From the NCBI RefSeq assembly GCF_024228675.1, contig NZ_CP100461.1, forward strand, positions 2,539,398-2,603,397: DNA of 64,000 nucleotides. The letters run 5' to 3'. Under the pieces are notes generated by a model. The model saw only the letters and a program-made list of their open reading frames with translations, was not told the DNA's origin and did no database searches. The DNA comes from Salinigranum marinum (GTDB lineage Archaea > Halobacteriota > Halobacteria > Halobacteriales > Haloferacaceae). Positions 1 through 42,882 of this stretch are shown one piece after another. The number at the start of each line of letters is the position of its first letter. Positions within the stretch are counted from its first letter, which is position 1. The translations under genes were made by a program, and so were the position numbers.

Positions 1-401
1 TTCTGGTTCATCCGGAACTGCAGTGTCGAGCCGGTGCTCTGTCCGGCCGTGTCGGCCTCGTAGCTGATCGACACGGTTCGAGTGACCGTGTCGTGGTTGT
101 GGATCTCGAAGGCCGGGTCCTGATGGGGCTGCCCCTCGCCCACCCGGTACACCGAGTCGACGTTGGTGCCGCCGGCGTTCCCGTCCGCGGTGAAGTCGAT
201 CAGGAGTTCACCGTTCTCCTCGCGGACGACGGCACCGTCGGTCGTATCGACCAGACCGAGCAGACCGTTCGCGTCGTTGACCACGTTGACGTTCGCGTCG
301 CGATCCATCGTCGAGCTGATCGAAGCGCCCGTGCCGAGCGCCGCGCCCGAGCCAGCCACCAGTGCACCGAGTCCGATTACGAATTTGCGTCGTTTGACCA
401 T
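1..401 (-). CDS. Secreted DUF1102-like protein, paralogue 1 (3' end outside window)
   Basis: The reading frame starts at the ATG at 401 and leaves the window without a stop (133 codons visible). The N-terminus MVKRRKFVIGLGALVAGSG is a signal-peptide-like leader: a basic start, then a small hydrophobic Gly/Ala-rich core. It is followed by the DRDANVNVVNDxNGLL segment that typifies haloarchaeal DUF1102-like secreted proteins. The leader and first mature residues are nearly identical, at the DNA level too, to the genes at 428-1096 and 1118-1789. Family membership is from memory of the motif. Function is unknown; an extracellular or cell-surface protein is likely. Confidence 0.7.
   Translation of the reverse strand, partial: MVKRRKFVIGLGALVAGSGAALGTGASISSTMDRDANVNVVNDANGLLGLVDTTDGAVVREENGELLIDFTADGNAGGTNVDSVYRVGEGQPHQDPAFEIHNHDTVTRTVSISYEADTAGQSTGSTLQFRMNQ
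273..401 (-). repeat. 129-bp 5' gene cassette, copy 1
   Basis: Same sequence as 968-1096 except for one visible mismatch, and close to 1661-1789. It covers the start codon, signal peptide and first mature residues of the paralogous genes. Similarity falls off sharply downstream of this stretch. Confidence 0.85.
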
Positions 402-427
402 CGTTGAAATTAACGTGGGTAATATCG

Positions 428-1096
428 TTATTCGCTGCTGACGGTCAGGGTACCCGAGAGGTCCTCGGACGTGGAGCCGTCGGTGACGGTACCGAAGCCG
501 GGGTTCCCGTCGCCGGTGTCGACCTGGAACGATACGCCGACCTTCTCGCCCGAGTCGAGCGTGACGGTCGCCGTGTTGTCCCGCCCGGCCACGTTCGGGA
601 TCAGAATCTCGTCCGTCACGTCGTTGCTGGCGTCGTCGTCCTCGTCCTGGAGCTGGAAGTAGATCTGTGAGCCGTTGAGGTTGCCGGTGACTGTGTACGT
701 GAGCGTCACGTCGCGCGACACCGTGTCGTTGTTGACGACGTAGAACGCCGCGTCGTCGTACGGGTCGTCCCAGCCACCGTACGTTTCGTCCTGCAGCGCA
801 TCGACTTCACCCGGCGGGAAATGGCTGAACTGCCCGACCTGATATCTGGAACCGACGTTGACACCGTCGGCGTTGCCGCCCGCGGTGAAGTCGATCAGCA
901 GTTCGCCGTTCTGTTCGCGGACGACATCGCTCTGTGTGTCGCTGACGATCGCGAGCAGCCCGTTGCTGTCGTTGACCACGTTGACGTTCGCGTCGCGATC
1001 CATCGTCGAGCTGATCGAAGCGCCCGTGCCGAGCGCCGCGCCTGAGCCAGCCACCAGTGCACCGAGTCCGATTACGAATTTGCGTCGTTTGACCAT
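428..1096 (-). CDS. Secreted DUF1102-like protein, paralogue 2
   Basis: 222 residues, starting with the same MVKRRKFVIGLGALVAGSG leader as its neighbours. After the leader comes DRDANVNVVNDSNGLLAIV, then an acidic domain rich in beta-branched residues, with DYNVNNDTVSRDVTLTYTV-like strands and a GExVGVSFQVDT stretch near the C-terminus, as expected of a secreted beta-sandwich. It lies 26 bp from paralogue 1 and 21 bp from paralogue 3 in the same direction, so the three are probably co-transcribed from about 1.8 kb. No enzyme motif is visible. A TasA/camelysin-like structural role is conceivable but is only inference. Confidence 0.75.
   Translation of the reverse strand: MVKRRKFVIGLGALVAGSGAALGTGASISSTMDRDANVNVVNDSNGLLAIVSDTQSDVVREQNGELLIDFTAGGNADGVNVGSRYQVGQFSHFPPGEVDALQDETYGGWDDPYDDAAFYVVNNDTVSRDVTLTYTVTGNLNGSQIYFQLQDEDDDASNDVTDEILIPNVAGRDNTATVTLDSGEKVGVSFQVDTGDGNPGFGTVTDGSTSEDLSGTLTVSSE
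968..1096 (-). repeat. 129-bp 5' gene cassette, copy 2
   Basis: Nearly identical to copy 1 (one visible base difference, in the Gly/Ala-rich leader). It encodes the start of the DUF1102-like paralogue 2. Confidence 0.85.
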
Positions 1097-1117
1097 TGGT
1101 AGAGAGAGTTGAATGGA

Positions 1118-1789
1118 TCAGTTGCTGCTGATCGTCAGCGTCCCGCCCAGATCCTCTTGCTTGGTCGCTCCGCTCCCGGTCGTGTCCACGAGGATGGAGA
1201 AGCCGATCGCGCCGGCGGATTGGAGCCGGTCGTCGCGGTTCCCCCCGGCAGCGCCGGTCGTGAACGTCGCAGACGGGTTCGTCGAGCCGCTCTCGACGAC
1301 GAGGTTCTTCGTCGGCTCGCCGTTCCCGACGAGGTTGTTCGGGGCCGGGCGTGCCTGAATGATCATCTTCGAGCCGTTCGAGTTCAGCGAACCCGTGTGC
1401 TGGTATTCGACTGTGACACTGCGCGGAACCGTGTCGTTGTTGACGACCTGGAACGCGGGGTTCACGGTCGGGCTGTTCCCGTCCGTGTTCATCGGAGCGC
1501 CCACGTCGAAGAGCGAGCCGATCTGGTACTGGGAGTTCACGTTGACACCGTCAGCGTTGCCGTTGGCGGTGAAATCGATCGTGAACTCACCGTCGCCCGT
1601 CTCTCGGAGGACGTCGCTCTCGACGTCCTCGGAGACGACGATCGCGAGCAGCCCGTTGCTGTCGTTGACCACGTTGACGTTCGCGTCACGATCCATCGTC
1701 GAGCTGACCGAAGCGCCCGTTCCGAGGGCAGCACCCGAGCCAGCCACCAGTGCACCGAGTCCGATTACGAATTTGCGTCGTTTGACCAT
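1118..1789 (-). CDS. Secreted DUF1102-like protein, paralogue 3
   Basis: 223 residues from the ATG at 1789. An in-frame upstream ATG at 1879 would add 30 residues before the conserved leader and is rejected because the two sister genes start exactly at MVKRRKFV. The leader and the DRDANVNVVNDSNGLLAIV segment match the sisters, while the body is divergent and contains FQVVNNDTVPRSVTVEYQHTG and ends in GGTLTISSN. It is the promoter-proximal gene of the visible minus-strand cluster. A secreted beta-rich protein of unknown function is the safest call. Confidence 0.75.
   Translation of the reverse strand: MVKRRKFVIGLGALVAGSGAALGTGASVSSTMDRDANVNVVNDSNGLLAIVVSEDVESDVLRETGDGEFTIDFTANGNADGVNVNSQYQIGSLFDVGAPMNTDGNSPTVNPAFQVVNNDTVPRSVTVEYQHTGSLNSNGSKMIIQARPAPNNLVGNGEPTKNLVVESGSTNPSATFTTGAAGGNRDDRLQSAGAIGFSILVDTTGSGATKQEDLGGTLTISSN
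1661..1789 (-). repeat. 129-bp 5' gene cassette, copy 3
   Basis: Encodes the start of paralogue 3. It differs from copies 1 and 2 at several scattered bases but aligns along its whole length without gaps. Confidence 0.8.
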
Positions 1790-4461: not shown

Positions 4462-5874
4462 ATGCACGTCGCTATCGTCGGTGCGTACGGCAGCGCCGGA
4501 GTCGCCGTCGCGGAACGACTGAGCGAACACGTCGGCGAGACGGTGTCGAGGCTGTCGCTCGTCGACGACGGCGACCCCGGCGGTGGGCTCTGTATCCTCC
4601 GCGGCTGTATGCCGTCGAAGGAGGTCATCTCCGCCGCGGGGCACCGGTACGGCGTCCGCCACGACCACCGACTCGTCGGCTCTCCGCCGGCGATGGATCT
4701 CGACCGCGTCGTCGAGACGAAAGACGAGCACATCGACAACTTCGCGCGACACCGGCGCGCGGCGGTCCACGGGATGACCGAGCGCGAGGGGGTCGAGTTC
4801 TACCACGAGCGCGCGACGTTCGTCGACGACCACACGCTTCGGCTCGACCCCAGCGGCGACGAACTCGTTGCGGACTACGTCGTCGTCGCCACGGGCTCGG
4901 TCGTGAACGTCCCCGACCTCCCCGGCATCGACGACGTGGACGTGACGACGAGCGCCGACGTCCTCGACGCCACGTCCCTGCCCGACTCGGGGATCGTGAT
5001 GGGCTTCGGCTACATCGGCCTGGAGATGGTGCCGTACCTCGCGGAGGCCGGCGTCGACCTCACCGTGATCGAACACGACGCCCGCCCGCTGGACGAGGCC
5101 GACCCCGACTTCGGCGGCGAACTCCTCGACGTCTACCGCGAGGAGTTCGGCGTCGAGATCCTGACCCACGCGTACGAACAGCGGGTCGAACCGGTCGACG
5201 GGGGCGTGCGGATGCAGCTCGAACACGATGGCCGGGACGCGACACGGGAAGCCGACGAACTGTTCGTCTTCACGGGACGCCGGCCGAACCTCGACGGGCT
5301 CGGGCTGGAGAACACCGCGCTGACCCCCGACCCCGGCTGGGTCGACGACACGATGCAGGCCCGCGACGACCCGCGGACGTTCGTCGTCGGGGACGTGAAC
5401 AGAAAAGAGCCGATCCTCCACGTCGCCAAGGAGCAGGGACACGTCGCGGCCGAGAACCTCCTCGCGCACGCCGCCAACGAGGCGTTGGAGACGTACGAGA
5501 ACGTCCACCACCACGTCGTCTTCTCGGCGGCCGGCGTCTACCCCTACGCCCGCGTCGGTCACTCGGTCGCCTCCGCGCAGGAGGCAGAGGTCGAGCACGT
5601 CTCGGTCAGCAGACATGCCAGCGACGACGGCGTGTTCAAGACTAAAGCCACTCCCCGGGGACTGGCGACGCTCGTCGTCGGGACCGACGGCAGGGTGCTC
5701 GGCTACCAGGGGCTACACTACCACGCGGACGTGATGGCGAAGACGATGCAACTCGCCGTGGAGATGGGGCTCGACGTCAGGGAGATCCCGGACCGGGCGT
5801 ACCACCCCACGACGCCCGAGATACTCGACGGGCTGTTCCGTGAGGCGGCGAATGAACTGACCGACGCGACGTGA
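4462..5874 (+). CDS. Class I pyridine nucleotide-disulfide oxidoreductase (dihydrolipoyl dehydrogenase-like)
   Basis: 470 residues from the ATG at 4462; the open frame extends far upstream but only through the antisense-like shadow of kdgK. The redox pair is CILRGC (Cys44, Cys49), followed by MPSK. The NAD-binding fingerprint GFGYIG is near residue 180, and the C-terminal His448-x4-Glu453 pair of class I dimeric reductases is present. The first Rossmann loop is unusual (VGAYGSAG rather than GxGxxG). It is not next to any 2-oxoacid dehydrogenase genes, so the substrate (lipoyl, mercuric-type, low-molecular-weight thiol) is open. Confidence 0.75.
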   Translation: MHVAIVGAYGSAGVAVAERLSEHVGETVSRLSLVDDGDPGGGLCILRGCMPSKEVISAAGHRYGVRHDHRLVGSPPAMDLDRVVETKDEHIDNFARHRRAAVHGMTEREGVEFYHERATFVDDHTLRLDPSGDELVADYVVVATGSVVNVPDLPGIDDVDVTTSADVLDATSLPDSGIVMGFGYIGLEMVPYLAEAGVDLTVIEHDARPLDEADPDFGGELLDVYREEFGVEILTHAYEQRVEPVDGGVRMQLEHDGRDATREADELFVFTGRRPNLDGLGLENTALTPDPGWVDDTMQARDDPRTFVVGDVNRKEPILHVAKEQGHVAAENLLAHAANEALETYENVHHHVVFSAAGVYPYARVGHSVASAQEAEVEHVSVSRHASDDGVFKTKATPRGLATLVVGTDGRVLGYQGLHYHADVMAKTMQLAVEMGLDVREIPDRAYHPTTPEILDGLFREAANELTDAT

Positions 5875-5902
5875 CGAACGGACGGTAGCGCACCCGCCGC
5901 GG

Positions 5903-6355
5903 TCACTCGAACTCTAGGTCGACCGGTTCGATGTCGACCCGACGGATGACGAAGAACGCGAGGATGAGCACCGCCAGCAACAGGGCGAACGAGCCCGCGG
6001 CGACGAACGCCTCCTCGACCGAGGCGTACTCGCTGGGACGGTAGCTGATGACCTTCCGCGCGATGGCGATGAGCGCCGCGTTGATAACGATCCGGATGAC
6101 CGGCTCGTTCCGGCTGAACGCGACGACGGTCTGGAACACCTCGACGATGATCAACAAGAGCAAGACGGTGTCGATGAGATCGATGACGGCGTTCGGGTCG
6201 GTGAACCGACCCGAGGTCAGGAGTTGATACAGCGACAACCCCAGGTCGAAGACGCCGATGGCGAACAGCGCCACGAGAAAGTACGCGGCGCCCAGTTCGA
6301 GCCATCGCATGATCCGCTCGGAAGTCCCGGCGAAGTCTTCGAGTTCGAGAGCCAC
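5903..6355 (-). CDS. PsiE-family membrane protein
   Basis: 150 residues from a GTG at 6355. The upstream in-frame extension is arginine-rich and not protein-like, so this start (VALELEDFAGTSERIMRW) is preferred. Four hydrophobic segments are visible, with conserved text such as FTDPNAVIDLIDTVLLLLIIVEV, FSRNEPVIRIVINAALIAIARKVI and ALLLAVLILAFFVIRR, typical of the phosphate-starvation-inducible PsiE family. The biochemical role is unknown. It lies convergent to the oxidoreductase gene and downstream of the CNNM-like gene on the same strand. Confidence 0.75.
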   Translation of the reverse strand: MALELEDFAGTSERIMRWLELGAAYFLVALFAIGVFDLGLSLYQLLTSGRFTDPNAVIDLIDTVLLLLIIVEVFQTVVAFSRNEPVIRIVINAALIAIARKVISYRPSEYASVEEAFVAAGSFALLLAVLILAFFVIRRVDIEPVDLEFE

Positions 6356-6453
6356 ACCTGTCACAGGTCGTAGACGAACCAAAGCGTTGTGGCAGGCGTC
6401 GGTCCGACGGCGGGAGGCGACGCGAGGAGCCACCCGGTGTCGTCGACAGCGCC

Positions 6454-7809
6454 TCACTCGGAGACGGCGGGCGTGTCGCCGCCCTCGTCACCGTCGCCGT
6501 CGTCGACGACCGGCCGGACGCGAACGCGTCTGATGCGGTGACCGTCGACCCGCTCGACGTCGAGTTCGACCTCGTCGACGAGGACCGTGTCGCCGACGTC
6601 GCCGATGCGACCGAGTTCCGCGTTGATCAGGCCGGCGACGGTCTCGAACTCGCCCTCGGTGGGGAGATCGACGCCGAGGACGTCGTTCACCTCGCCGACA
6701 GTCACCTCGCCCTGGACGACGAGCCCGTCGGTCGTCGGGCGGATGAGCCGCTCCTCGCCGACCTCGAAGATCTCGCCGACGATCTCTTCGAGGATATCCT
6801 CGACGGTCAGGATCCCCTCGGTCTCGCCGAACTCGTCGCGGACGATGACCATCGTGACGCGCTCGGCCTGCATCTCCGCGAGGAGGTCGTCGATCTCTCT
6901 GCCCTCGGGCACCTGCAGCGTCGGGAGGAGCACGTCGTCGAGTTCCTGTCCCGCCCGGCGGGCGCGCTCGGCGTCGCGGATGTCCGCGATGCCGACGACG
7001 TGGTCGAGCGTCCCCTGGTAGACGGGGACGCGGGTGAGCCGGTTCGTGGCACACACCTCGATGACCTCGTCGAGCGGCGTCTCGACGTCGACGGCGACGA
7101 GGTTCACGCGCGGGACCATCACCTCCCGGGCCGTCGTCGACCCGAGTTCGAAGACGCCCTCGACCATCTCGTGTTCGGCCTCGTCGATCGCTCCGATCCG
7201 CTCGCCCGTCTTCAACAGCGCCTCGATCTCCTCGCGAGTGACGTACGGCCGCTCGATGTCGGAGCCGCCCCCGGTGATCCGGTTGAGGCCCCGGGAGACG
7301 AAGTCGAAGGTGACGACGAGCGGGAAGAGCAGTCGTTCGACGGTCGCGAGCGGCCCGGCGACCCGCAGGGCGAACCGCTCGGCGTTGGCGACGCCGTACG
7401 ACTTCGGCGTGATCTCGCCAAAGACGAGGACGAGCGCGCTCACGCCGAACGTCGTCACGAGGACGGCGACCTCCGGCGAGAGCGCCGCGGCGAGCAGGAC
7501 CGAGGCGATACTCGCCATCGCGATGTTGACGATGTTGTTCCCGACGAGGATGGTCACGAGGAGGCGGTGGGGATCCTCTCGGAGTCGGTGGAGCACCCGC
7601 GCACGCGGGTCGCCGCCGTCGGCCTCGAGGAGCGCCGAGAGCCGGTGGCGTTCGAGCGAGAAGACCGCGATCTCGCTCGACGAGAAGAACGCCGAGGCGA
7701 CGAGCAGAACGGCGATCGTCACCACCCCGACCAGGATCGTCGTCCCGGAGAGGACGTCGCCGGTCACGGCGAGGAGCCATCCGGCCACGGGCACACTGTC
7801 GAGTGTCAC
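6454..7809 (-). CDS. CNNM/CorC-type membrane protein (DUF21-CBS-CorC)
   Basis: 451 residues. An N-terminal DUF21 transmembrane domain (about residues 20-200, beginning VASAFFSSSEIAVFSLERHRL) is followed by a pair of CBS domains (about 215-335, with PRVNLVAVDVETPLDEVIEVC and VTMVIVRDEFGETEGILTVEDILEEIVGEI) and a C-terminal transporter-associated CorC/HlyC domain that includes VAGLINAELGRIGDVGD. Such proteins act in Mg2+ or Co2+ efflux or homeostasis, often under adenine-nucleotide sensing by the CBS pair. The old name 'hemolysin' is misleading. The ending is highly acidic, as expected of a halophile. Confidence 0.85.
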   Translation of the reverse strand: MTLDSVPVAGWLLAVTGDVLSGTTILVGVVTIAVLLVASAFFSSSEIAVFSLERHRLSALLEADGGDPRARVLHRLREDPHRLLVTILVGNNIVNIAMASIASVLLAAALSPEVAVLVTTFGVSALVLVFGEITPKSYGVANAERFALRVAGPLATVERLLFPLVVTFDFVSRGLNRITGGGSDIERPYVTREEIEALLKTGERIGAIDEAEHEMVEGVFELGSTTAREVMVPRVNLVAVDVETPLDEVIEVCATNRLTRVPVYQGTLDHVVGIADIRDAERARRAGQELDDVLLPTLQVPEGREIDDLLAEMQAERVTMVIVRDEFGETEGILTVEDILEEIVGEIFEVGEERLIRPTTDGLVVQGEVTVGEVNDVLGVDLPTEGEFETVAGLINAELGRIGDVGDTVLVDEVELDVERVDGHRIRRVRVRPVVDDGDGDEGGDTPAVSE

Positions 7810-8181
7810 GAAGACTCACCGTCGAGTGATCGAGGCTGTCGACACCGTGAGAGGGCGGGGGTCGCGGACGCACGAATCCGGGGCCGACGGTGTAGCATGA
7901 CCCGAAGATAGACCGACGGGACGTTAGTTCCTGTGGGTTGGGACCGTCCGGACAGCGAGGGTTGGTCCGCCTCGTCGCGCCGCGAACGAACCGCTCGGGC
8001 GGAGCGAACCTGTCCGCGGGGCGACCCGACGCCCGTTCGGGAGGTCCGAGGGGCGTCGAAACGCCGGAGACGCCTCTCGGCCACGAGGGCGAACGACACG
8101 CCGAGGGGCGGCGACGTCGCGGTGTCGGGCGCGGAGTCGTCCCGACGCGGATGGGTCGCCGGGGCGGAACGGCGACGAGGC
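7810..8181. other. Intergenic region without a supported gene
   Basis: About 370 bp between two minus-strand genes. The open frames on either strand are arginine-rich, lack halophilic acidity and look like chance GC-rich frames. No RNA or repeat was recognised. Confidence 0.4.
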
Positions 8182-8436
8182 TCAGCGGCTGTTTTCGAGC
8201 GAGCAGTACGACCCCTCTTCGGCGGTCAGCCAGGCCGTTGTCCGCGGGAGCTCCGCCGACGCCGTGTGCGGGAAGATCGTACACTCGTCCGGCGCGTCGT
8301 CGTACTGCTCGACGTGTCCGTGGAGGGCGAACCCGGCGTCGGACGCCGGCGGGGGGCCGAGGTCGAGGCCGAACGGCTCCGCGTTCCGACTCGGTCCCCC
8401 CGTGGAGTCGGCGTCGCGGTCGGTCGTGTCAGACAT
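8182..8436 (-). CDS. Small conserved haloarchaeal protein, DUF7511-like
   Basis: 84 residues from the ATG at 8436, very acidic. The C-terminal half (DECTIFPHTASAELPRTTAWLTAEEGSYCSLENSR, about residues 49-84) resembles the conserved core of the haloarchaeal DUF7511 family, where an ECTxFP strand is followed by TAWxTAxEGSYxxLE. The N-terminal half is a low-complexity linker. No function is known. The assignment is from remembered family text and should be treated as moderate. Confidence 0.6.
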   Translation of the reverse strand: MSDTTDRDADSTGGPSRNAEPFGLDLGPPPASDAGFALHGHVEQYDDAPDECTIFPHTASAELPRTTAWLTAEEGSYCSLENSR

Positions 8437-30535: not shown

Positions 30536-30574
30536 GTAATAACTCTTAATATTTCGTGACGGCTGAGTTATTAC
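30536..30574 (+). promoter_or_regulatory. Perfect 10-bp inverted repeat around the nikR1 TATA box
   Basis: gtaataactc (30536-30545) and gagttattac (30565-30574) are exact reverse complements separated by 19 bp, and the second arm touches the ATG of nikR1. The TATA-like cttaatattt lies just inside. A regulator bound here would block TBP, which fits autoregulation. The spacing differs from the 6-16-6 Escherichia coli NikR operator. Confidence 0.6.
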
Positions 30575-31003
30575 ATGACCGTCGTCAGTGTCTCGATGCC
30601 GGAAGAATTGCTCAACCGGATCGACCAGTTCGCGGACGACCACGGCTACACCGGCCGGAGTGAGGTACTCCGTGAGGCGAGCCGCAACCTCCTCGGCGAG
30701 TTCCAAGACAAGAAGCTCGAAGACCGCGAGCTGATGGGCATCGTCACCGTCGTCTTCGACTACGAGACGACCAGCGTGGAGGAGAAGATGATGCGCCTCC
30801 GCCACGAGTACGAAGACGTCGTCGCCTCGAACTTCCACAGCCACGTCGGCGGCCATCACTGCATGGAACTGTTCGTCCTCGAGGGATCGCTCGAGGAGAT
30901 CTCCACGTTCGTCGGGAAGATCCGGGCAACCAAAGACACGCTCACCGTCGACTACTCGGTCCTGCCGGTCGACGACTTCGGCCCGCTGGCGGATATTAGC
31001 TAA
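30575..31003 (+). CDS. nikR: NikR nickel-responsive regulator, canonical ligand set
   Basis: 142 residues. A ribbon-helix-helix domain ([37 protein letters not shown]) is joined to an ACT-like metal-binding domain. The metal ligands of E. coli NikR (His76, His87, His89, Cys95) are all present at His77, His88, His90 and Cys96, within [21 protein letters not shown]. It should therefore bind Ni2+ as a square-planar site and repress uptake genes. It heads the metal-transport island and is probably leaderless, with the inverted repeat at 30536-30574 over its promoter. Confidence 0.9.
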
Positions 31004-31138
31004 ACCGTTTTAACACACTGTTCGTTCCCGAGTTCACCGACACGGCGGCAACTGCCGGGTCCAGCGACCGCCGAATATTAACTCCTCGAGGTAAAATCGC
31101 AGTTTTTATTAATTTAAGTGCTATATTTAACAATCACG

Positions 31139-32170
31139 ATGACGCCCCTCACTCGACGGAACGTGCTCCGCGGAGCCGGTGCGAGCGTGGTCGCGGCCTC
31201 GACCGTCGCTGGCTGTCTCGGACGGAGAGGAAGCGGAGCCCTCGACGCCCTCACCCTCGCGTACGTGCCGATCTACCCGAACATGCAACACTACGTGATG
31301 TCCGAGGAGGGCTACTACGACGACGTTCCGGCCGACGTCACTGTCGAGCGCTTCAGCACCGGCCCGAGTGTCGTGAAGGCCTTCGCCAGCGGGAGCGTCG
31401 ACGTCGCCCTGTTCGGCATCACTCCGGCGATGGTGCTCGTCGACAAAGGCACCGAAGCCGGCGTGCTCGCGGCGAGTTCCAGGAACGGCTTCAAGCTCAT
31501 GGCGACGACCGAGGTCGTCGACCTGTACGAGCGGGAGGGCCCGACCACCTTCGAGCGCTTCGAGCGGGAGCACGGGCGCAGGATACGGTTCGGGGCCCCG
31601 CCGGACGGGAGCGTCCCCGACATCGTCCTGCGGTACTGGATCGAAGAGGAGTTCGGCGTCGGCGAGATGGAGTCGGTCGTCGACAAGTCGAACGTCCCGC
31701 CGGCGAAGGCCGTCCAGACGATCCAGTCGGGCGACATCGACGCGACGATCGTCCAGGAACCGTTCGCGACCATCGTCGGTCAGGACGACGCCTTCGATGG
31801 GCTCGCGTGGTCCGGTGCCGTTCTCGAAGACCATCCCGTCACGGTGCTGTTCGCGAACCAGCGGGTGATCGACGCCAGGGAAGTCGCGCAGTCACTGGTC
31901 GAACAGCACGTCGCGGCGACCGAGTTCACGACTGAATCGCCCGACACGGCCGCAGCTCACGCCGCGTCCGTGATCGGCTCTGGCGTGAGCGAGGACCTCG
32001 CCGCGGCGGCTATGCAGTCCCGTGCCGCCGACTTCCTCTCGAACCCGCACACCGTCACCGACCAGGCGGCGACGATGGGCGACTTCGTTGCGAGTGTCGG
32101 CAACATCGACGAACCGGTCGCGACGGCGGACCTGTTCGCCGTCGAGGCCTACGACGCCCTCCAGTCATGA
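31139..32170 (+). CDS. ABC transporter substrate-binding lipoprotein, NitT/TauT type
   Basis: 343 residues from the ATG at 31139; a TATA-like tttttattaattt lies about 27 bp upstream. The start MTPLTRRNVLRGAGASVVAASTVAGC has a twin-arginine-like motif and a lipobox. The mature part follows the NMT1/SsuA-like fold (LTLAYVPIYPNMQHYVMSEEGYY, VKAFASGSVDVALFGITPAM). Family members bind nitrate, taurine, sulfonates, thiamine precursors and similar small molecules. Located between two nikR genes and an ECF nickel importer, this one may bind nickel or a nickel chelate; that is inference from context only. Confidence 0.75.
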   Translation: MTPLTRRNVLRGAGASVVAASTVAGCLGRRGSGALDALTLAYVPIYPNMQHYVMSEEGYYDDVPADVTVERFSTGPSVVKAFASGSVDVALFGITPAMVLVDKGTEAGVLAASSRNGFKLMATTEVVDLYEREGPTTFERFEREHGRRIRFGAPPDGSVPDIVLRYWIEEEFGVGEMESVVDKSNVPPAKAVQTIQSGDIDATIVQEPFATIVGQDDAFDGLAWSGAVLEDHPVTVLFANQRVIDAREVAQSLVEQHVAATEFTTESPDTAAAHAASVIGSGVSEDLAAAAMQSRAADFLSNPHTVTDQAATMGDFVASVGNIDEPVATADLFAVEAYDALQS

Positions 32171-33009
32171 GTTTCCGGACTGGTGTCAGCACCGAGGCGT
32201 CCGAGCCCACCCGGATCAGGGGCGACCTCCGTCGATATCTCCGTGGTCTCGGGGGGCTTGGTGTCTTTCTCGTCGTCTGGTGGGTCGGCGCGGCGACGAC
32301 CCAGCCGTCGTATCTCGTACCGGGACCCGTCGACTCGGCCCGGGCGTTCCTCGAACTGTTCGCGACCTCGACCACCGTCGCCGTCCCCCTCGTGCGTGCC
32401 GAGGTGGTCCTGCCGACGGGGTTCGCACACCTCGCACAGACGCTGTTCCACTACGTTCCCGGGTTGCTCGTCGGCGCAGCCAGCGGGATCGGTCTCGGGT
32501 TGACGATGGGGTGGAGCGGGAGACTCGACGATTGGTTACAGCCACTCGTCCGGGTCCTCCGCCCGATTCCGCCGCTCGCGTGGATCGTCTTCGCGATCGT
32601 CTGGTTCGGTATCCACCACACCGGCGCGGCGTTCATCGTCTTCGTCGGGGCGTTTTGGATCAACTTCTACGGTGCCTACGGGGGGGTCGAAGGCGTCTCG
32701 GGCGAGTTGACCGACGCCGCCTCGACGCTCGGCGTCGAACGTGACTGCTCGATGCTGCGGCTCGTCGTGCTGCCGAGTGCGACGGCGCAGGTGTTGACCG
32801 GGTTCCGGACGAGCATCGGTCGGTGCTGGATGATCGTGGTCGGCGCCGAACTGTTCGGCGCACCCGGCGTCGGCTACGAGATCATCAACGCCTCGAACAA
32901 CCTCGCGATGGCGACCAGCGTCGCCTACATGTTCCTCATCAGCCTCGCCTTCCTGTGTACGGACGTCGGGTTTCGACTCGTCGAACGGAGGGTCCTCGCG
33001 TGGCGCTGA
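32167..33009 (+). CDS. ABC transporter permease, NitT/TauT type
   Basis: 280 residues, overlapping the binding-protein gene by 4 bp (ATGA). It has about six transmembrane segments and the conserved loop of this class, PLVRVLRPIPPLAWIVFAIVWFGIHHTGAAFIVFVGAFWINFYGAYGGV (about residues 118-165), followed by the EAA-like ASTLGVERDCSMLRLVVLPSATAQVLTG cytoplasmic loop that docks the ATPase. It forms the membrane channel of the importer encoded here. The substrate is not deducible from the permease. Confidence 0.85.
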   Translation: MSFRTGVSTEASEPTRIRGDLRRYLRGLGGLGVFLVVWWVGAATTQPSYLVPGPVDSARAFLELFATSTTVAVPLVRAEVVLPTGFAHLAQTLFHYVPGLLVGAASGIGLGLTMGWSGRLDDWLQPLVRVLRPIPPLAWIVFAIVWFGIHHTGAAFIVFVGAFWINFYGAYGGVEGVSGELTDAASTLGVERDCSMLRLVVLPSATAQVLTGFRTSIGRCWMIVVGAELFGAPGVGYEIINASNNLAMATSVAYMFLISLAFLCTDVGFRLVERRVLAWR

Positions 33010-33788
33010 GTGATACGTCACCACCGGAGAGAACGGCCGGCGGGGAGATCGAGATCAGGAACGTCAGCAAGGCGTACGAGTCGACGCAGGCGCTCGCAGG
33101 CGTCTCCGTTTCGGTCGCGGAAGGGGAGTTCTGCTGTGTCGTCGGGCCATCAGGCTGTGGCAAGACCACGCTACTGCGGACGATTGCCGGGCTCGAAACC
33201 CCCGACAGCGGTTCGGTGGTAATCAATGAAGAGCCGGTCACCGATCCGGGTCTCGATCGAGGGATGGTCTTTCAGGAGTACGCGCTGTTCCCGTGGCGGA
33301 CCGTCCGCGGGAACGTCCGGTTCGGTCTCGACCGGCCCGCGTGTGACTGCCCGGACTGCGAGGCACGAGTCCGGGACCTGATCGACCTCGTCGGACTCGA
33401 CGGGTTCGAGGGCGCGTACCCGAAGGAACTGTCCGGTGGGATGAAACAGCGCGTCGGGATCGCCCGCGCGCTCGCCGTCGACCCGGCAATCTTGTTGATG
33501 GACGAGCCGTTCGCGAGCGTCGACGCACGGACACGCGACCGTCTGCACGGTGAACTACTCGACATCTGGGCACGGACAGCCCAGACCGTCGTGTTCGTCA
33601 CTCACGACATCGACGAGGCGGTGACACTAGCCGACCGAGTCGTCGTCATGGACGCCGACCCCGGCACCGTCCAGTCGACCGTCTCGATCGACCTAGAGCG
33701 CCCGCGCGAGCGGACGGCTCACGGCTTCGTCGACCACGTCGCACGGATCAGGGACGAGCTCGGCAGCCCGAACGGTACTAACTACTAG
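33000..33788 (+). CDS. ABC transporter ATP-binding protein, NitT/TauT type
   Basis: 262 residues from a GTG at 33000, which overlaps the permease gene by 10 bp and is the start that gives a normal length. Walker A GPSGCGKTT, signature LSGGMKQRVGIARAL, Walker B ILLMDEPF and the H-loop VTHDIDEA are all present, with a Q-loop in VFQEYALFPW. An unusual CDCPDC pair sits after the Q-loop (about residue 116) and could bind a metal. It completes a self-contained three-gene importer. Confidence 0.85.
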   Translation: MALSDTSPPERTAGGEIEIRNVSKAYESTQALAGVSVSVAEGEFCCVVGPSGCGKTTLLRTIAGLETPDSGSVVINEEPVTDPGLDRGMVFQEYALFPWRTVRGNVRFGLDRPACDCPDCEARVRDLIDLVGLDGFEGAYPKELSGGMKQRVGIARALAVDPAILLMDEPFASVDARTRDRLHGELLDIWARTAQTVVFVTHDIDEAVTLADRVVVMDADPGTVQSTVSIDLERPRERTAHGFVDHVARIRDELGSPNGTNY

Positions 33789-33865
33789 CAGCTACTTCCC
33801 GCAAAGTTAGCAAAATTATAGAATAACACCGCTATATCTATTATCTCTGAGCCAAGTTTTATTAT

Positions 33866-34315
33866 ATGCCCATCGTGAGCTCCTCGATGACTGAGCGCCT
33901 TCGGGACGACCTCGATCGGTTCGTCGAGGACCACGGCTACAGCGGCCGAAGCGAGGTGATTCGTGAAGCGTGCCGATCACTACTCGACGAGTATCAGCAG
34001 ACCGAATACGAGGGCCGACGGGTGCTGGGAACCATCACTGCCGTCTTCGGATACGATGCGCCGGAGATCGAACGCCGCATGATGGACGTTCGCCACGAGT
34101 TCGAGGCGTCGATCATATCGAATTCGCACGACTGCCTCACCGACAACGGGGGCTGTGTGGAGACGTTCGTCGTCGAGGGCGAGTACGACGTCGTCCTGAA
34201 TTTCATCGCGACCGTGCGCGGCGTGGACGAGTCCGTCTCCGTCGAATACACGACCGCCCCGATCGATGTGATGACCATCGAGGCGGGGGAGCCGCTCGGC
34301 GAGAACTCGGGATAG
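33866..34315 (+). CDS. nikR: NikR paralogue with altered metal ligands
   Basis: 149 residues, aligning along its whole length with the first NikR (VSSSMTERLRDDLDRFVEDHGYSGRSEVIREACRSLL, then RHEFEASIISNSHDCLTDNGGCVETFVVEG). The ligand positions read His77, His88, Cys90 and Cys97, so one histidine is replaced by cysteine and the loop is one residue longer. It may sense a different metal or the same metal with different affinity. A TATA-like element about 28 bp upstream of the ATG suggests a leaderless transcript. The gene symbol reflects the family, not proven nickel specificity. Confidence 0.8.
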   Translation: MPIVSSSMTERLRDDLDRFVEDHGYSGRSEVIREACRSLLDEYQQTEYEGRRVLGTITAVFGYDAPEIERRMMDVRHEFEASIISNSHDCLTDNGGCVETFVVEGEYDVVLNFIATVRGVDESVSVEYTTAPIDVMTIEAGEPLGENSG

Positions 34316-34443
34316 CTGCCGGAGTGTGGGTCGAGGAACCAGCTCGGTATCAATAACAGCGTCTCGTTCCCGAAGAGTTATTATCTGCTTCTCTTTCAAA
34401 AGGTAACTTTATTATGTTTAGTGTTGAAATTGCTAACATAGCT

Positions 34444-35124
34444 ATGGCACACATTCACCTCGGTGAGGGGTCGTTTCCGCTGTGGGCACTGGTGCTGTGG
34501 ACTGCCCTCGGCGCCGCCCTGGTCGGCGCAGTCGTCTATCGGGTCCGGAAAGGTGGTATCAAAACACACCAGATCGCGCTTGCCGGCATCGGCGCGGCCG
34601 CGAGCTTCGCGATCTTCCAGTTGAACATCCCGGTCTGGGGTGGCATCCACATGAACCTCACCGGGCTCGTCGGGATCCTCGCCGGACCGCTCCTCGGTGT
34701 GCTCATCGCGCTCGTGGTCAACATCTTCTCGGCTGCGCTCGGTCACGGTGCCGTCGGCCTCCTCGGCGCGAACACGCTTGTCAACGCCTCCGAAGCGATC
34801 GTCGCCTACTACGCGTTCAGGACGCTGCTCCGGATGGACTGGGACGTCTTCCCCGCCAGCGCGAGCGCGGCGACGCTCGGCCTGTCGGCGGGGGCCGTCC
34901 TGATGGGTGCGATCATCGTCATCAGCGGGGTGAACGGGAGCGCGCTGCCCCGCGGAGATCTGACGATCGCCGTCGCCGGTCTGGTCGGCCTCAACCTCGG
35001 CGTCGCGGTGATCGAGGGCCTCCTGACCGGCTTCGTCGTCCAGTTCCTCGCCTCGGTCCGGCCCGACCTCGTCGGGCTCGCCGACCGCACCGCCAGTGAG
35101 GAGTCCGCCGGGGTGACCGCCTGA
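34444..35124 (+). CDS. cbiM: ECF-type nickel/cobalt importer, substrate-specific membrane protein (CbiM/NikM)
   Basis: 226 residues from the ATG at 34444. Several hydrophobic segments are present, with the conserved LNIPVWGGIHMNLTGLVGILAGPLLG and GHGAVGLLGANTLVNASEAIVAYYAF stretches. An in-frame ATG at 34414 would add MFSVEIANIA, but the later start is preferred because CbiM/NikM need a histidine at the mature N-terminus. Here MAHIHLGEG becomes AHIH after removal of Met. A TATA-like tttatta lies about 30 bp before 34444. In this context the metal is more likely nickel. Confidence 0.85.
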   Translation: MAHIHLGEGSFPLWALVLWTALGAALVGAVVYRVRKGGIKTHQIALAGIGAAASFAIFQLNIPVWGGIHMNLTGLVGILAGPLLGVLIALVVNIFSAALGHGAVGLLGANTLVNASEAIVAYYAFRTLLRMDWDVFPASASAATLGLSAGAVLMGAIIVISGVNGSALPRGDLTIAVAGLVGLNLGVAVIEGLLTGFVVQFLASVRPDLVGLADRTASEESAGVTA

Positions 35125-35453
35125 TGCAGCGCTGGAAGCAGTATGGCGGACTCGCCGGTCTGTTCGCGGTCTGTCTCGCTGCCGGGCTCTGGGGCTTCAC
35201 CTCGACGGGCGGGGCACTCCCCTGGGCCAAGCGCTCGGCACAGGCGCTACAGCGTGGCGTCCAGCAAAGCGGTGGCGCACTCGTCGACCTCGGGCGAGGG
35301 ATCGTCGTCGCCGGTCCGATCCGCAAGGGCGGGCTGATGCTCGAGTTCGTCGGCGTGGTCGTCCTGCTCACCGTCATCGGAGTCGGCCTGTACGTGTACG
35401 CTAACCGCTACCACGGGGTCGACGAGCCGGAACGCACGGCCCGGTCACCGTGA
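35124..35453 (+). CDS. Small membrane component of the ECF metal importer (NikN/CbiN-like)
   Basis: 109 residues, starting in a TGATG overlap with cbiM. Two hydrophobic segments (about residues 10-28 and 72-92: LMLEFVGVVVLLTVIGVGLYVYA) flank an extracytoplasmic loop, the topology of NikN/CbiN accessory subunits that couple substrate capture to CbiM/NikM. Sequence similarity within this class is low, so the call rests on size, topology and position between cbiM and cbiQ. The loop contains no cysteine or histidine cluster. Confidence 0.7.
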   Translation: MQRWKQYGGLAGLFAVCLAAGLWGFTSTGGALPWAKRSAQALQRGVQQSGGALVDLGRGIVVAGPIRKGGLMLEFVGVVVLLTVIGVGLYVYANRYHGVDEPERTARSP

Positions 35454-36265
35454 CGACGCTCTCGAACCACGTCCCGGACCCGCGGTTGATCACGGCCTAC
35501 GCCGAGCATCGTCGGGGCCCGCTTCACCGCGTCAACCCGTGGACGAAAGTCGGTGTCGTCGGCGCACTCGTCCTCGCGGTGACGGTCGTCGATAGCCTCG
35601 CCGTCCTCGCGGGGGTGTACGCCGCGACGCTCGTGGTCTACGGGATCGCCGGACTTCCGTACGGGCGGCTCGTCTACTGGTACACGCTGCCGTTGCTGTT
35701 CATCGCCTCCGTGGCGGGGCCGCTCGCCTTCCTCGAACCGGGAGTACCCATCGGCGGGTCCCTCACCACCCCGATCGGCGAACTCTCGGTCACGTGGGCG
35801 GGTGCGACGCTGTTCGGCGAGCTGACCTGCCGGTCGCTGACCGTCGTCACGTTCACGCTGGCCGCGACGATGACCACGCGGTACGCCGACATCGCGTACC
35901 TGCTTGGCAGACTTCTCCCTCGACCGATCGACCAGGTTGCCCTCCTCACGTACCGATTCACGTTCGTCATGATCGAAACGCTCGAAGACCTCGTCAAGGG
36001 CGTGCTCGCGCGCGGGGCGAGCCTCTCGGAGTTCTGGGCGAACCGGCGGACGTACGCCCGTATCCTCGGGATGACGCTGCTGACGGCGATCGAACGCTCC
36101 GAACGGCTGGTCAAGTCGATGGAGGCCCGCGGCTACGAGGGCGACATCACGCTGTACGGCGACGTCTCGCGCCCGCCCGCTCGCGAACTCCTCGCTGTCG
36201 TCGCCTGCTACGCGGGCGTCGTCGCCTACGCGCTCGTCGTGGTCTACGAGGTGATCCCGAGATGA
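35450..36265 (+). CDS. cbiQ: ECF transporter transmembrane subunit (CbiQ/NikQ, EcfT)
   Basis: 271 residues from a GTG at 35450, overlapping the preceding gene by 4 bp. The EcfT signature is clear: NPWTKVGVVGALVLAVTV near the N-terminus, multiple membrane helices, and a cytoplasmic coupling region with ARGASLSEF and SMEARGYEG (about residue 225), which corresponds to the Ala-Arg-Gly coupling motif that contacts the ATPase. It links CbiM to CbiO in the metal importer. Confidence 0.85.
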   Translation: MTTLSNHVPDPRLITAYAEHRRGPLHRVNPWTKVGVVGALVLAVTVVDSLAVLAGVYAATLVVYGIAGLPYGRLVYWYTLPLLFIASVAGPLAFLEPGVPIGGSLTTPIGELSVTWAGATLFGELTCRSLTVVTFTLAATMTTRYADIAYLLGRLLPRPIDQVALLTYRFTFVMIETLEDLVKGVLARGASLSEFWANRRTYARILGMTLLTAIERSERLVKSMEARGYEGDITLYGDVSRPPARELLAVVACYAGVVAYALVVVYEVIPR

Positions 36266-37152
36266 GCACCGACCACTCCCGGGAACGAACGCCGCTGATC
36301 GACCTCCGATGTGAGGCTCACACCTACCCCGACGGCACCGTCGGGATGCACGACGTCGACTTTTCAGTACACGCCGACGAGGTCCTCGCTCTCGTCGGTG
36401 GCAACGGCGCCGGGAAGTCGACGCTCTTGGAGCACCTGAACGCGACGCTGGTACCCGACGAGGGCGAACTCGTCGTCGACGGGACGCCCATCACCGAAGA
36501 CAACAAGGCTCACGCTCGCCGGGAGGTCGGCTTCGTCTTCCAGGACGCCGACACTCAGCTGGTCGCCCCCACGGTGCTGGACGACGTGCTGTTCGGCCTC
36601 CAGAACTACGGCGTATCTGGGGAGGAAGCCGAACGGCGGGCACGGGAGGCACTGGCGACTGTCGACGCCGCGCACCTCGAAGACCGGATCCCACACTACC
36701 TCAGCGGCGGCGAAAAACGCCTCGTCGGGCTCGCCGGCGTGCTCGTTTTAGAGCCGAGTGTGATCGTCCTCGACGAACCGCTAGCGGGGCTCGACCCCGA
36801 GCGCTCGCGGCTGGTCGCCGACCGGATCCGGGGGATCCACGAAGCGGGAATCAGCGTGGTGCTGTCGACGCACGACCTCGAGTTCGCCGCCAAGATCGCC
36901 GACCGAGTCTGCGTGATGGCCGACGGCAACGTCGTCGGGAGCGGGACGCCTCGGGAGGTGTTCTACGACGACGCTCTGCTGGAGCGGGCGAACCTCCACC
37001 CGCCAGCTGCAGTCCGCGTGGTCCGGGACGCGGGACTCGATGCGAGTACACGGCCGGTCACGGAAGCCGACCTCGTCTCGCTCCTCTCGGAGGGGGCCGT
37101 CGACCCGGGGACGATTCAGGCCGGTTCCCTCGATAACAGCGGACGGAACTGA
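36262..37152 (+). CDS. cbiO: ECF transporter ATP-binding subunit (CbiO/NikO)
   Basis: 296 residues from the ATG at 36262, overlapping cbiQ by 4 bp. Walker A GGNGAGKSTLLEHLN, Q-loop FQDADTQLVAPTVLDDV (the ECF-specific FQ[DN]xDxQ pattern), signature LSGGEKRLVGLAGVL, Walker B VIVLDEPLAGLDP and the H-loop STHD are all intact. A C-terminal extension of about 50 residues after the core follows NLHPPAAVRVVRDAG. With the three preceding genes it forms a complete nickel/cobalt ECF importer operon. Confidence 0.9.
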   Translation: MSTDHSRERTPLIDLRCEAHTYPDGTVGMHDVDFSVHADEVLALVGGNGAGKSTLLEHLNATLVPDEGELVVDGTPITEDNKAHARREVGFVFQDADTQLVAPTVLDDVLFGLQNYGVSGEEAERRAREALATVDAAHLEDRIPHYLSGGEKRLVGLAGVLVLEPSVIVLDEPLAGLDPERSRLVADRIRGIHEAGISVVLSTHDLEFAAKIADRVCVMADGNVVGSGTPREVFYDDALLERANLHPPAAVRVVRDAGLDASTRPVTEADLVSLLSEGAVDPGTIQAGSLDNSGRN

Positions 37153-37393
37153 GAACCGTCCGTACCTCGCGCCGCTCTCTCGGTCCCCGAGACGGTCACC
37201 CTGCGATACGCGTGGGTGATCGTCGTGGTCGACCCCGCCCACAGGCCTTCGGATTCTGTACGACGTGCCGCGGTTCCGACTCGGAGCCGTCCTCGCGTGG
37301 CCGGTCGTCCCGGACAGCCGGACAGTCCGACGGCCACGCCGTTCGTCGCCTGCCCGCTGGCGCGGTACGAAGTTCACGTGTTGAGTGGTCCGC

Positions 37394-37546
37394 TCAGTGG
37401 TGCTCGTGGATGTGGTCGCGCAGCGAGTCGGTGTCGTCGAACTGTTCGTCGCACTCCGCACACGTGTCGTGGTGGAGCGCGACGTGCTGGGTCACGCCGG
37501 CAGCACTCTGGAACTGTGCATCGCAACTGGAGCAGGTGTACGCCAT
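37394..37546 (-). CDS. 50-residue double C2H2 zinc-finger protein
   Basis: A short gene from the ATG at 37546 to a TGA at 37394. The product begins MAYTCSSCDAQF and has two fingers: Cys5/Cys8 with His21 and His25/26, and Cys29/Cys32 with His45 and His47/49. A TATA-like stretch (rc of gtattaaaa, 37571-37579) lies about 25 bp upstream, fitting a leaderless mRNA. It is convergent with cbiO. Such haloarchaeal microproteins act as small regulators or interaction modules; a role in the metal island is possible but unproven. Confidence 0.75.
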   Translation of the reverse strand: MAYTCSSCDAQFQSAAGVTQHVALHHDTCAECDEQFDDTDSLRDHIHEHH

Positions 37547-38666: not shown

Positions 38667-40065
38667 CAGTACTTCACGAAGCCGGTTAGTTGAGACGTCT
38701 GCTTGCGGAAGGTGTGCTTAGAACCCAGCAAGCAGACAGTAGACTCCATGAGGACCAGATTCTTAACTTCCTCGTCAACACCCTTGACGAGGAAGTTTCG
38801 ATCACTCTCGGTGAGAACGCTCAGATAACGTCGGAAGAGATCTGTGAGGTCCTCGTCGGCGCGTGCGCCGACGGGACCTCAATCTCGACACTTTGTGAGA
38901 ATAGTGCTAACTCCCCTCGTGCCAACGCCGTCCTCTATCATCTTCGGACGAAGTTCGAGCTGGAACAGCTCGAACGAGTCGGAAACACACTCCTCCAGCG
39001 AGATATTCTCGATGCCCTTCCCAAGCAGGTGGAGGTCGTCGCTGACCTCCACCTGCGTCCCTACTACGGTGACGAAGACGGCACAGAGGGCCTCTACCAC
39101 TCGGAAGCCAAGCGTGGAACAACCGCATTCCACGCGTACGCGACGCTGTACGCACGCGTGAAGAACAAACGCTACACGCTGGCGGTGCGCCGTCTTGTCG
39201 ACGGCGACACCGCCAGCAGCGTCCTCGCCGAGTTTCTCGGTATCCTTGACGGCCTTGACCTCGGCGTCAAGGCCGTCTACCTCGATCGAGAATTCTACGA
39301 CAGCAAGTGTCTCACGCTGCTGCAGGCGCACAACCACGCGTACGTCATCCCGATTATCCGGTGGGGTCAGTCGATCAAGCAAGAACTCTCCGAGGGCTGG
39401 AGTCGCGTGATTCACCACGACATGACGGCGAAACTCGACGGTCACAGCTGGACCGTCGAGTTTCCCGTCTACATCGACTGTACCTACCAGAACGGACGAT
39501 ACGACGAACATGGCGTGGCGCGTCACGGCTACGCCGCTGACGCGCCGTTCATCAATTCTCCTCGCGACGCTCGATACCACTACGCGAAACGCTTCGGTAT
39601 CGAGGCCAGCTACCGACTCTCCGAGCAAACGATTGCGACGACTACGACACAGGATCCGGCGGTACGGCTGCTGTACGTCGTAGTGAGTTTGCTGTTACAG
39701 AACGTGTGGCGGTATCTGCACTGGGAGTATGTGGCGACGCCCCGCCGAGGCGGGCGTCGCCTCTGGGAGTGGTCGTATAAGGAGTTCACCAACATGATCC
39801 GACGGGCAGCGTGGACGGCCCTCGCGACGCGTCGGGCCGTCCCCGCAAACCGACCGCCGGACGACCGGTTCGTCCGGTAACGACCGATCGAGTACGCCCC
39901 TGCGGTGAGTGGCAAGGCTGTCGCGTCGGCGGCGGATCGCCGCCGACAGCGACGATCTTCTCTTGATCTTCCGGTGACCCCCTCGTCAAGATCGATAGTG
40001 GAGTCGATTCGACACGGAACTTAAGCTTCAGAGGTGGTTAGCCGAGGAAGTTTCGTGAAGTACTG
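38667..40065 (+). mobile_element. Intact ISH3-family insertion sequence
   Basis: 1399 bp bounded by perfect 14-bp terminal inverted repeats: cagtacttcacgaa at 38667-38680 and its reverse complement at 40052-40065. The flanking 5 bp are identical, agatt at 38662-38666 and at 40066-40070, a target-site duplication. Length, ends and transposase are those of the haloarchaeal ISH3 family. The unmutated duplication and open transposase frame indicate a recent insertion. Confidence 0.95.
38714..39880 (+). CDS. ISH3-family transposase
   Basis: 388 residues from a GTG at 38714 (a TTG at 38690 gives 396). It contains IHEDQ-like LHEDQILNFLVNTLDEEV, LVGACADGTSISTLC, VEVVADLHLRPYYGDEDGTEGLYHSEAKRGTTAFHAYATLY, KAVYLDREFYDSKCL and RFGIEASYRLSEQTIATTTTQDPAVRLLYV. 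These are the DDE-type catalytic blocks of ISH3 (Asp in ADLHLRPYYGDED, Asp in YLDREF, Glu in FGIEASYR). The frame is undisrupted, so the element may be active. Confidence 0.9.
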   Translation: MLRTQQADSRLHEDQILNFLVNTLDEEVSITLGENAQITSEEICEVLVGACADGTSISTLCENSANSPRANAVLYHLRTKFELEQLERVGNTLLQRDILDALPKQVEVVADLHLRPYYGDEDGTEGLYHSEAKRGTTAFHAYATLYARVKNKRYTLAVRRLVDGDTASSVLAEFLGILDGLDLGVKAVYLDREFYDSKCLTLLQAHNHAYVIPIIRWGQSIKQELSEGWSRVIHHDMTAKLDGHSWTVEFPVYIDCTYQNGRYDEHGVARHGYAADAPFINSPRDARYHYAKRFGIEASYRLSEQTIATTTTQDPAVRLLYVVVSLLLQNVWRYLHWEYVATPRRGGRRLWEWSYKEFTNMIRRAAWTALATRRAVPANRPPDDRFVR

Positions 40066-41883: not shown

Positions 41884-42882
41884 TCAGCTACTCACGCCGG
41901 GTGGATCGTACGCCTCCTCTCGGTCGAGCATGTAGTACATCGACACGAGTAGTTTCCGTGCCGTTGCGACGATCGCCTTCTTCGAATTCATCCGACTGTT
42001 CAGCCGGTGGAAGAACCGGCTCAGATACTCATCTTTACTGGTGTACACCGCTGTGTACGCACTCTGAACCAGGATCCACCGAACCCGTCCAGAGCCGCGT
42101 TTCGAGATACCTCCCTCGATCCGCGAGTCGCCCGACTCGCGGATCGTCGGGTTCAGTCCCATGTAACTCACGACCTCCTTGTGACTGTCGAACCGATCGA
42201 CTTCTCCAAGCTCCGCGTAAATCAGCAACGCGGAGTAGTAGCTGACACCGGGGATGGTCATCAGCAGCTGGGTCTCGGTCAGAGACCCAGCGCGCTCCTC
42301 AATCGCCGCTTCGAGCTGTGATATTTTCTCGCTCAGCGTCTTGATCACGTCGAGGTACGACTCCAACAACGCGTCCCACGGTGACGGGAGCGAGAGTTCC
42401 CGGAGGAACTCTCGTCCCTTCACGCTCAGTGGCTTCACCTCCCGGGTGATGCCATTGTCGGCGAGCAAGCCGTGGATCTTGTTGGCGAACTTGGTCCGGT
42501 CTTCGATTAGGGTCTGTCGCCCGCGCACGAGTGCGCGGGCTTCCCTGATCTCGTCGGTGGGAACGTAACTCTCCGGAACGGAGTTGAGCCGAAGCAGTCG
42601 CGCGAGTTCTTTGGCATCGACGCGATCAGTCTTCTTGTCCGACTGAGCGATGAGCGTCAGTTTGCCCGGATGAGCGACGGTCACGTCCAAGTACTCCGCG
42701 AGAGTATCGTAGACGTGGTAGTAATTGCTGGTCGCCTCGATCACCGCACGGGAACCAGCGTAGCGTCGAGCGAGGTCGTCGAGGTTCGCGTTCTCGACGC
42801 GAACCTCTTCGACGGGTTCGCCTTCGCTGTCGATTACTGCCACCTGTGCGTACCGCTTGTGTAAGTCGATTCCGAGGTACAT
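41884..42882 (-). CDS. IS110-family transposase
   Basis: 332 residues. The N-terminal DEDD (RuvC-like) domain has MYLGIDLHKRYAQVAVID (Asp6), AVIEATSNYYHVYDTL (Glu) and SDKKTDRVDAKELARLL (two Asp). The C-terminal Transposase_20 domain has LMTIPGVSYYSALLIYAELGEVDRF and VSYMGLNPTIRESGDSRIEGGISKRGSGRVRW, where the conserved Ser required for strand exchange lies. The frame is intact. Recent work showed that IS110 recombinases use a bridge RNA from the element's non-coding ends, so the flanking sequence deserves attention. Confidence 0.9.
   Translation of the reverse strand: MYLGIDLHKRYAQVAVIDSEGEPVEEVRVENANLDDLARRYAGSRAVIEATSNYYHVYDTLAEYLDVTVAHPGKLTLIAQSDKKTDRVDAKELARLLRLNSVPESYVPTDEIREARALVRGRQTLIEDRTKFANKIHGLLADNGITREVKPLSVKGREFLRELSLPSPWDALLESYLDVIKTLSEKISQLEAAIEERAGSLTETQLLMTIPGVSYYSALLIYAELGEVDRFDSHKEVVSYMGLNPTIRESGDSRIEGGISKRGSGRVRWILVQSAYTAVYTSKDEYLSRFFHRLNSRMNSKKAIVATARKLLVSMYYMLDREEAYDPPGVSS

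Follow-up and report, generated by a model that had tools for sequence, protein, structure and literature searches.

A NitT/TauT-type ABC importer of haloarchaea shares a promoter module with metal-import genes

INTRODUCTION

ATP-binding cassette (ABC) importers of the NitT/TauT family (NrtABCD, CmpABCD, SsuABC, TauABC, and ThiXYZ) combine an NMT1_2 binding protein with a permease and an ATPase. Here we analyze a member of this family encoded in an island of metal-related genes in Salinigranum marinum. The island lies in a 64,000-nucleotide stretch (the window; positions 2539398 to 2603397 of C1, contig NZ_CP100461.1) of a 4.9-Mb haloarchaeal genome (G000). The importer has all three components, and its binding protein matches the CmpA/NrtA fold (Z of ~22). 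It differs from the described systems in its metal-gene context, its metal-regulon promoter, two histidines of the binding protein (His58 and His239), and a CxCxDC motif in the ATPase.

Three other kinds of system invite comparison. Like NikABCDE of the Opp/Nik type, the importer is putatively a NikR-linked metal uptake system, and NikA-like relatives in other haloarchaea bear the same promoter module; however, the binding-protein families are unrelated, and the island importer has one permease gene and one ATPase gene, whereas NikABCDE has two of each. An energy-coupling factor (ECF) importer of the Cbi/NikMNQO type lies directly downstream of the importer genes and has the module in common with them, but its CbiM lacks the MHxPDGF and GGTSAH motifs. 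In zinc-starvation regulons, Zur or ZntR is associated with COG0523 GTPases (PMC2770081); related islands likewise join ZnuABC/Azt-like importers and ZigA-like GTPases, but with NikR-family genes in place of Zur and with CbiMNQO and NitT/TauT importers included. COG0523-zinc links are reported to extend to the archaea, in which no recognizable Zur or Fur has been reported (PMC2770081). In Halobacterium, the DtxR-type regulator SirR is predicted to control cbiN, cbiM, and cbiQ together with zurM, zurA, and ycdH (PMC3600143). The importer family is a known one, and the regulon described below had previously been described only in part.

RESULTS

A promoter module of ~65 bp precedes both the binding-protein gene (31074 to 31141) and cbiM (34377 to 34446). 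It consists of TATTAA at about −63, ACAG-n2-TATTATTA around −40 to −28, and GTTAnnAAC right before the start codon. Conservation was seen across 25 non-redundant loci of the island type. The module is also recognizable in 25 loci where neither nikR nor cbiM lies close within reach, but it was not present in 36 promoters of the nearest paralogues. Matrices built from the cbiM and binding-protein promoters each detected the other promoter set in a constant register, with 76% and 74% scoring above z = 2, although only with a wider allowed shift; a narrow shift in the cbiM-matrix test gave no cross-recognition. Promoters of stand-alone importer copies were recognized in 88% of cases by the binding-protein matrix and in 48% by the cbiM matrix, compared with 5% for paralogue promoters and 8 to 10% for nikR1 promoters. 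The nikR2 promoters matched in part.

To see which genes carry the module, we ran a sequence-only profile of it (R1) over 25 whole genomes. In the genome of the window, R1 found exactly two places, the importer (E = 5.3e-9) and cbiM (E = 2.0e-6); both are training-set sites, and the independent part of this result is the absence of further sites. Three other genomes had no site at E ≤ 1. Elsewhere, 15 sites that had not been used for training were detected at E < 0.005. Of these, nine stood in front of operons for ZnuA-like binding proteins, one of which is truncated; two preceded cbiM, and a NikA-like operon and nikR2 were each preceded by one. A further site was located ~560 nt upstream of the gene for an NAD_binding_9 oxidoreductase, which comes after ZnuABC in other islands, and the last lay immediately after a nikR1 gene. 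Because R1 sites precede ZnuA-like, cbiM, and NikA-like genes, we conclude that the module marks metal-import genes. Membership of the importer in a regulon for transition-metal acquisition is well supported. Several of the ZnuABC-like operons (L214, L215, L219, L221, and L223) are followed by the NAD_binding_9 oxidoreductase gene and in some cases by a gene for a DUF7124 protein; these operons often adjoin MoaB, IscU-like, and cobalt-factor methyltransferase genes.

Together with homologues at ~46 to 75% identity, the binding protein forms a distinct clade, which is represented in 42 of 292 Halobacteria genomes. Most remaining matches (~30 to 43% identity) form the nearest paralogue group, of which the genome of the window also carries a member. 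When 15-kb neighborhoods of 42 clade loci and 38 paralogue loci were compared, a nikR-family gene was found in 19 of the former and in none of the latter (Fisher P = 4e-7). The paralogue clade has no nikR or cbi neighbors and no promoter module, and the idea that it has the same function was rejected. A second, species-named collection of 39 loci was also read. The full island found elsewhere runs nikR1, binding protein, permease, ATPase, nikR2, cbiMNQO, a short nikR3, a divergent nikR4, and two COG0523 GTPase genes; in the second collection it occurs in many genera, among them Halonotius (H. pteroides), Haloglomus (H. irregulare), Halostagnicola, Halosegnis, Halorubrum (H. kocurii), and Haloferax (Hfx. 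marisrubri). The window island lacks nikR3, nikR4, and both COG0523 genes, and in some genomes a ZnuABC-like importer replaces cbiMNQO. Whether a genome has both nikR1 and the importer is uninformative as evidence, since close homologues of nikR1 occur in 291 of 292 haloarchaeal genomes.

Residues specific to the clade were found in two of the three importer components. The ATPase carries CDCPDC at residues 112 to 117 of the protein P0001 (114 to 119 counted from GTG 33000), just after the Q-loop. The preliminary description of this DNA had singled out the cysteine pair near residue 116 as unusual for the family, and comparison bears this out: CxCxDC is kept in 38 of 41 orthologous ATPases and in 0 of 37 of the nearest paralogous ones, so it is not a chance feature. 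In the binding protein, His58 is present in 42 of 43 and His239 in 42 of 42 clade members, where the paralogues have Tyr and Gln. His58, His239, and the Cys cluster are residues of the kinds expected of a metal importer and are candidates for such a role.

By composition, the importer is a member of the NitT/TauT family: a single operon encodes an NMT1-type binding protein together with a permease and an ATPase of the corresponding type; none of the three parts reached an NCBIfam equivalog cutoff. The predicted fold of the binding protein matches CmpA, NrtA, 3un6, SsuA, TauA, and Thi5 at Z of ~20 to 22, in a model with a mean predicted local distance difference test score of 70 that is poor at residues 182 to 209, including His239 (model residue 209). 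One solved relative, 3un6, has bound zinc, which may be incidental there. A literature search restricted to open-license papers returned nothing relevant on NitT/TauT importers and nickel. The place of the importer in a shared metal-starvation gene set (nickel, cobalt, or zinc) suggests a kind of metal importer that those papers do not describe.

The two NikR proteins of the window island differ in their metal sites. NikR1 has the ribbon-helix-helix domain and the C-terminal domain with His, His-x-His, and Cys that define NikR, and all four nickel ligand positions are kept in alignment with the solved proteins 2bj1 and 1q5v. NikR2 departs from the canonical ligand spacing, with His-x-Cys and one inserted residue in all aligned orthologues; because the second His of His-x-His is replaced by Cys, its site comprises two His and two Cys. 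By the general principles of metal coordination, such a ligand set would fit Zn(II) or Co(II) in tetrahedral geometry. NikR2 was considered as the sole or general regulator of the module and rejected, because its orthologue is missing from 21 of the 22 genomes in which the importer stands alone. The promoters of nikR1 follow another pattern than the importer/cbiM module: 48 non-redundant nikR1 genes share a conserved AT-rich upstream pattern, ATAAYAA..TTTAATA..TTGTTAT, and in the window, immediately 5' of nikR1, a perfect 10-bp inverted repeat, GTAATAACTC-N19-GAGTTATTAC (30536 to 30574), surrounds a TATA-like TTAATATTT. Read from the sequence, this repeat is a candidate autoregulatory operator of nikR1. 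Related islands (L133 to L136, L143, L148, and L155) encode up to four NikR-family paralogues with differing ligand spacing, which resemble a natural series of metal sensors. Elsewhere in the genome of the window, a short NikR3-type regulator is divergent from a NicO-like membrane protein with a weak Pfam NicO match (L232, C3:185000 to 197000, at 4542 to 5877).

The CbiM protein of the island, a member of a divergent subfamily, has a CbiM domain and is accompanied by CbiQ and CbiO, as in other CbiM/NikM systems. The canonical motifs, an N-terminal Met-His in MHxPDGF and GGTSAH, are not found in it; all island CbiM proteins read MAHIHLGEG and GGIHMNLTG instead. The second CbiM of the same genome, next to a different nikR gene at C1:1851 kb, is canonical (MHIPDGFL and GGTSAHFVGG). 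At that locus (L233, C1:1846000 to 1857000, at 5108 to 8402), a canonical second nikR is divergent from canonical cbiMNQO. The urease cluster of the genome (L236, C1:3022000 to 3034000) has neither an adjoining metal importer nor the module.

The order of the island genes, all on the + strand, is nikR1, binding protein, permease, ATPase, nikR2, cbiM, small membrane protein, cbiQ, and cbiO. This agrees with the preliminary description. Genes overlap within each of the two transporter sets, as that description had seen for the ABC set, and Pfam supports every assignment but that of the small membrane protein. nikR1 (30575 to 31003; Pfam NikR_C, 80 bits, 1.1e-22) is followed by the genes for the substrate-binding lipoprotein with a Tat/lipobox signal (31139 to 32170; NMT1_2, 141 bits, 6.7e-41), the permease (32167 to 33009; BPD_transp_1, 73 bits, 2.4e-20; similar to SaoP/TauC/NtrB in NCBIfam, below cutoffs), and the ATPase (33000 to 33788; ABC_tran, 113 bits). 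The most likely starts are ATG 31139 for the binding protein and GTG 33000 for the ATPase, the latter giving a 10-nt overlap with the permease gene. nikR2 (33866 to 34315; NikR_C, 42 bits, 9.4e-11) separates this set from the ECF genes: cbiM (34444 to 35124; CbiM, 122 bits, 3.6e-35), whose ATG start at 34444 (MAHIH...) is kept in relatives; the gene for a 109-amino-acid membrane protein in the CbiN position (35124 to 35453), which has no family match in Pfam or NCBIfam and has orthologues at the same place in relatives; cbiQ (35450 to 36265; CbiQ, 101 bits, 1.3e-28); and cbiO (36262 to 37152; CbiO/ABC_tran, 112 bits; NCBIfam ECF ATPase, 3.9e-68, and CbiO, 2.5e-58). Directly downstream of the island, a low-GC stretch contains an IS110-type transposase gene (41884 to 42882) and a transposase-like open reading frame without a Pfam match (38714 to 39880). 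At the start of the window (1 to 1789, − strand), three tandem genes, the first cut by the window end, encode near-identical secreted proteins of ~222 amino acids.

DISCUSSION

Taken together, these results make it likely that the NitT/TauT importer brings a transition metal, most probably in chelated form, into haloarchaeal cells and is coexpressed with the ECF CbiMNQO-type importer in a metal-starvation regulon. Several points weigh against this conclusion. Module and neighborhood demonstrate coregulation, not substrate; the promoter tests drew on related species, so that their counts are not independent; metal genes are missing from the surroundings of about half of the clade; and, among the solved relatives compared, all those with identified ligands bind nitrate, bicarbonate, sulfonates, pyrimidines, thiamin, or pyrroloquinoline quinone. 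The preliminary description had held that homologues mainly away from metal genes and next to nitrate, sulfonate, or thiamine genes would count against a metal substrate. This criterion discriminates only in part: 19 of 42 clade loci do have a nikR-family gene in the neighborhood of the importer, and the approximately half that lie away from metal genes carry the metal-regulon promoter; the wider family, in the loci read, has no metal context. We considered that the substrate is one usual for NitT/TauT systems (sulfonate, nitrate, or pyrimidine) and that the importer came into the company of metal genes by shuffling of plasmids and islands. Its family, fold, and closest solved relatives fit this explanation, as do the many copies on plasmids or small contigs and the transposase just downstream of the window island. 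However, the module accompanies the gene to loci without metal neighbors and is otherwise found at metal importers, and the clade-specific His and Cys residues also argue against an ordinary substrate, which we regard as very unlikely.

Which metal is imported is a closer matter. From the gene order, the preliminary description had proposed a shared metal or metal-chelate substrate and had favored nickel; the functional tie to metal genes holds in neighborhood, module, and scan, whereas nickel specifically is not established. Because importers of the ZnuA/Azt and NikA types fall within the regulon and genes for ZigA-like COG0523 GTPases occur in the islands, zinc or cobalt is as possible as nickel. 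For a nickel-specific importer under NikR1, serving urease and other nickel enzymes, speak the four canonical ligands of NikR1, its standing as the sole island NikR found in nearly all genomes and as the best NikR candidate where the importer stands alone without NikR2, and the NikA-like importer within the regulon. Urease is also more common in clade genomes (19 of 42, versus 59 of 250; P = 0.007), including 16 of 22 with stand-alone copies, but these counts are non-independent and dominated by whole genera (such as one numbered g28). It occurs in only 3 of 20 island-bearing genomes, and that of the window's genome lies elsewhere without the module; being weak, urease co-occurrence was set aside as evidence. 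The ZnuA-like operons and ZigA-like GTPases, and the nikR1 promoter motif unlike the module, leave nickel specificity rather less likely than not. Somewhat more doubtful is a zinc-starvation (or zinc/cobalt) regulon in which altered NikR paralogues may sense zinc or cobalt and the importer carries a zinc chelate. Operons of the ZnuA/AztC-like and AztA-like kinds are the most frequent other members of the regulon, the COG0523 GTPases of related islands score highest by a wide margin against the zinc chaperone ZigA (430 and 348 bits, below the cutoff of 600), the NikR2 site is of a zinc- or cobalt-compatible kind, and the recorded COG0523-zinc links include archaea. Against zinc, the CbiM and NikA families import nickel or cobalt, cbiM is coregulated with ZnuA, ZnuA-type transporters also take manganese and iron, and the window island has no COG0523 gene; the CbiM family and a cobalt-factor II methyltransferase of B12 synthesis in two of the ZnuA islands point to cobalt. 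On balance, nickel or cobalt has about an even chance, zinc (possibly with cobalt) a lesser but substantial one, and any other metal is improbable. The regulator is similarly divided. The module may be the site of a SirR-like DtxR-type regulator, with the nikR genes as neighbors that have separate targets; this is a serious alternative because the Halobacterium prediction is closely parallel, joining the same pair of importer types (PMC3600143). The lack of a match between the module and the nikR1 promoters also speaks for it. Against it stand the recurrent association with NikR-family genes of four kinds and the partial match of nikR2 promoters. As repressor, we give the universal NikR1 about equal chances of being right or wrong, hold a DtxR-type protein to be rather unlikely, and another regulator more so.

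If a transition-metal importer is the correct reading, metal scarcity would cause the metal-loaded repressor to leave the promoters, so that both the NitT/TauT importer and the ECF system would be made. The lipoprotein would then bind the metal species, with His58 and His239 as candidate contacts, and the permease and ATPase would pump it inward; through its Cys cluster, the ATPase may respond to metal in the cytosol by slowing transport. More tentatively, and with the balance against it, the importer may represent a new class: a NitT/TauT system for a nickel, cobalt, or zinc chelate, with its own Cys-cluster feedback and a regulon run by NikR paralogues whose metal specificities have drifted apart, NikR2 being a zinc/cobalt sensor.

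If true, NitT/TauT, a large family whose members usually receive default annotations for the uptake of nitrate, sulfonate, or taurine, would have a metal-acquisition branch, and many haloarchaeal annotations would be wrong. Haloarchaea would gain a well-delimited metal-starvation regulon that is open to direct tests and has a ready promoter signature, together with a natural series of NikR paralogues with differing metal ligands.

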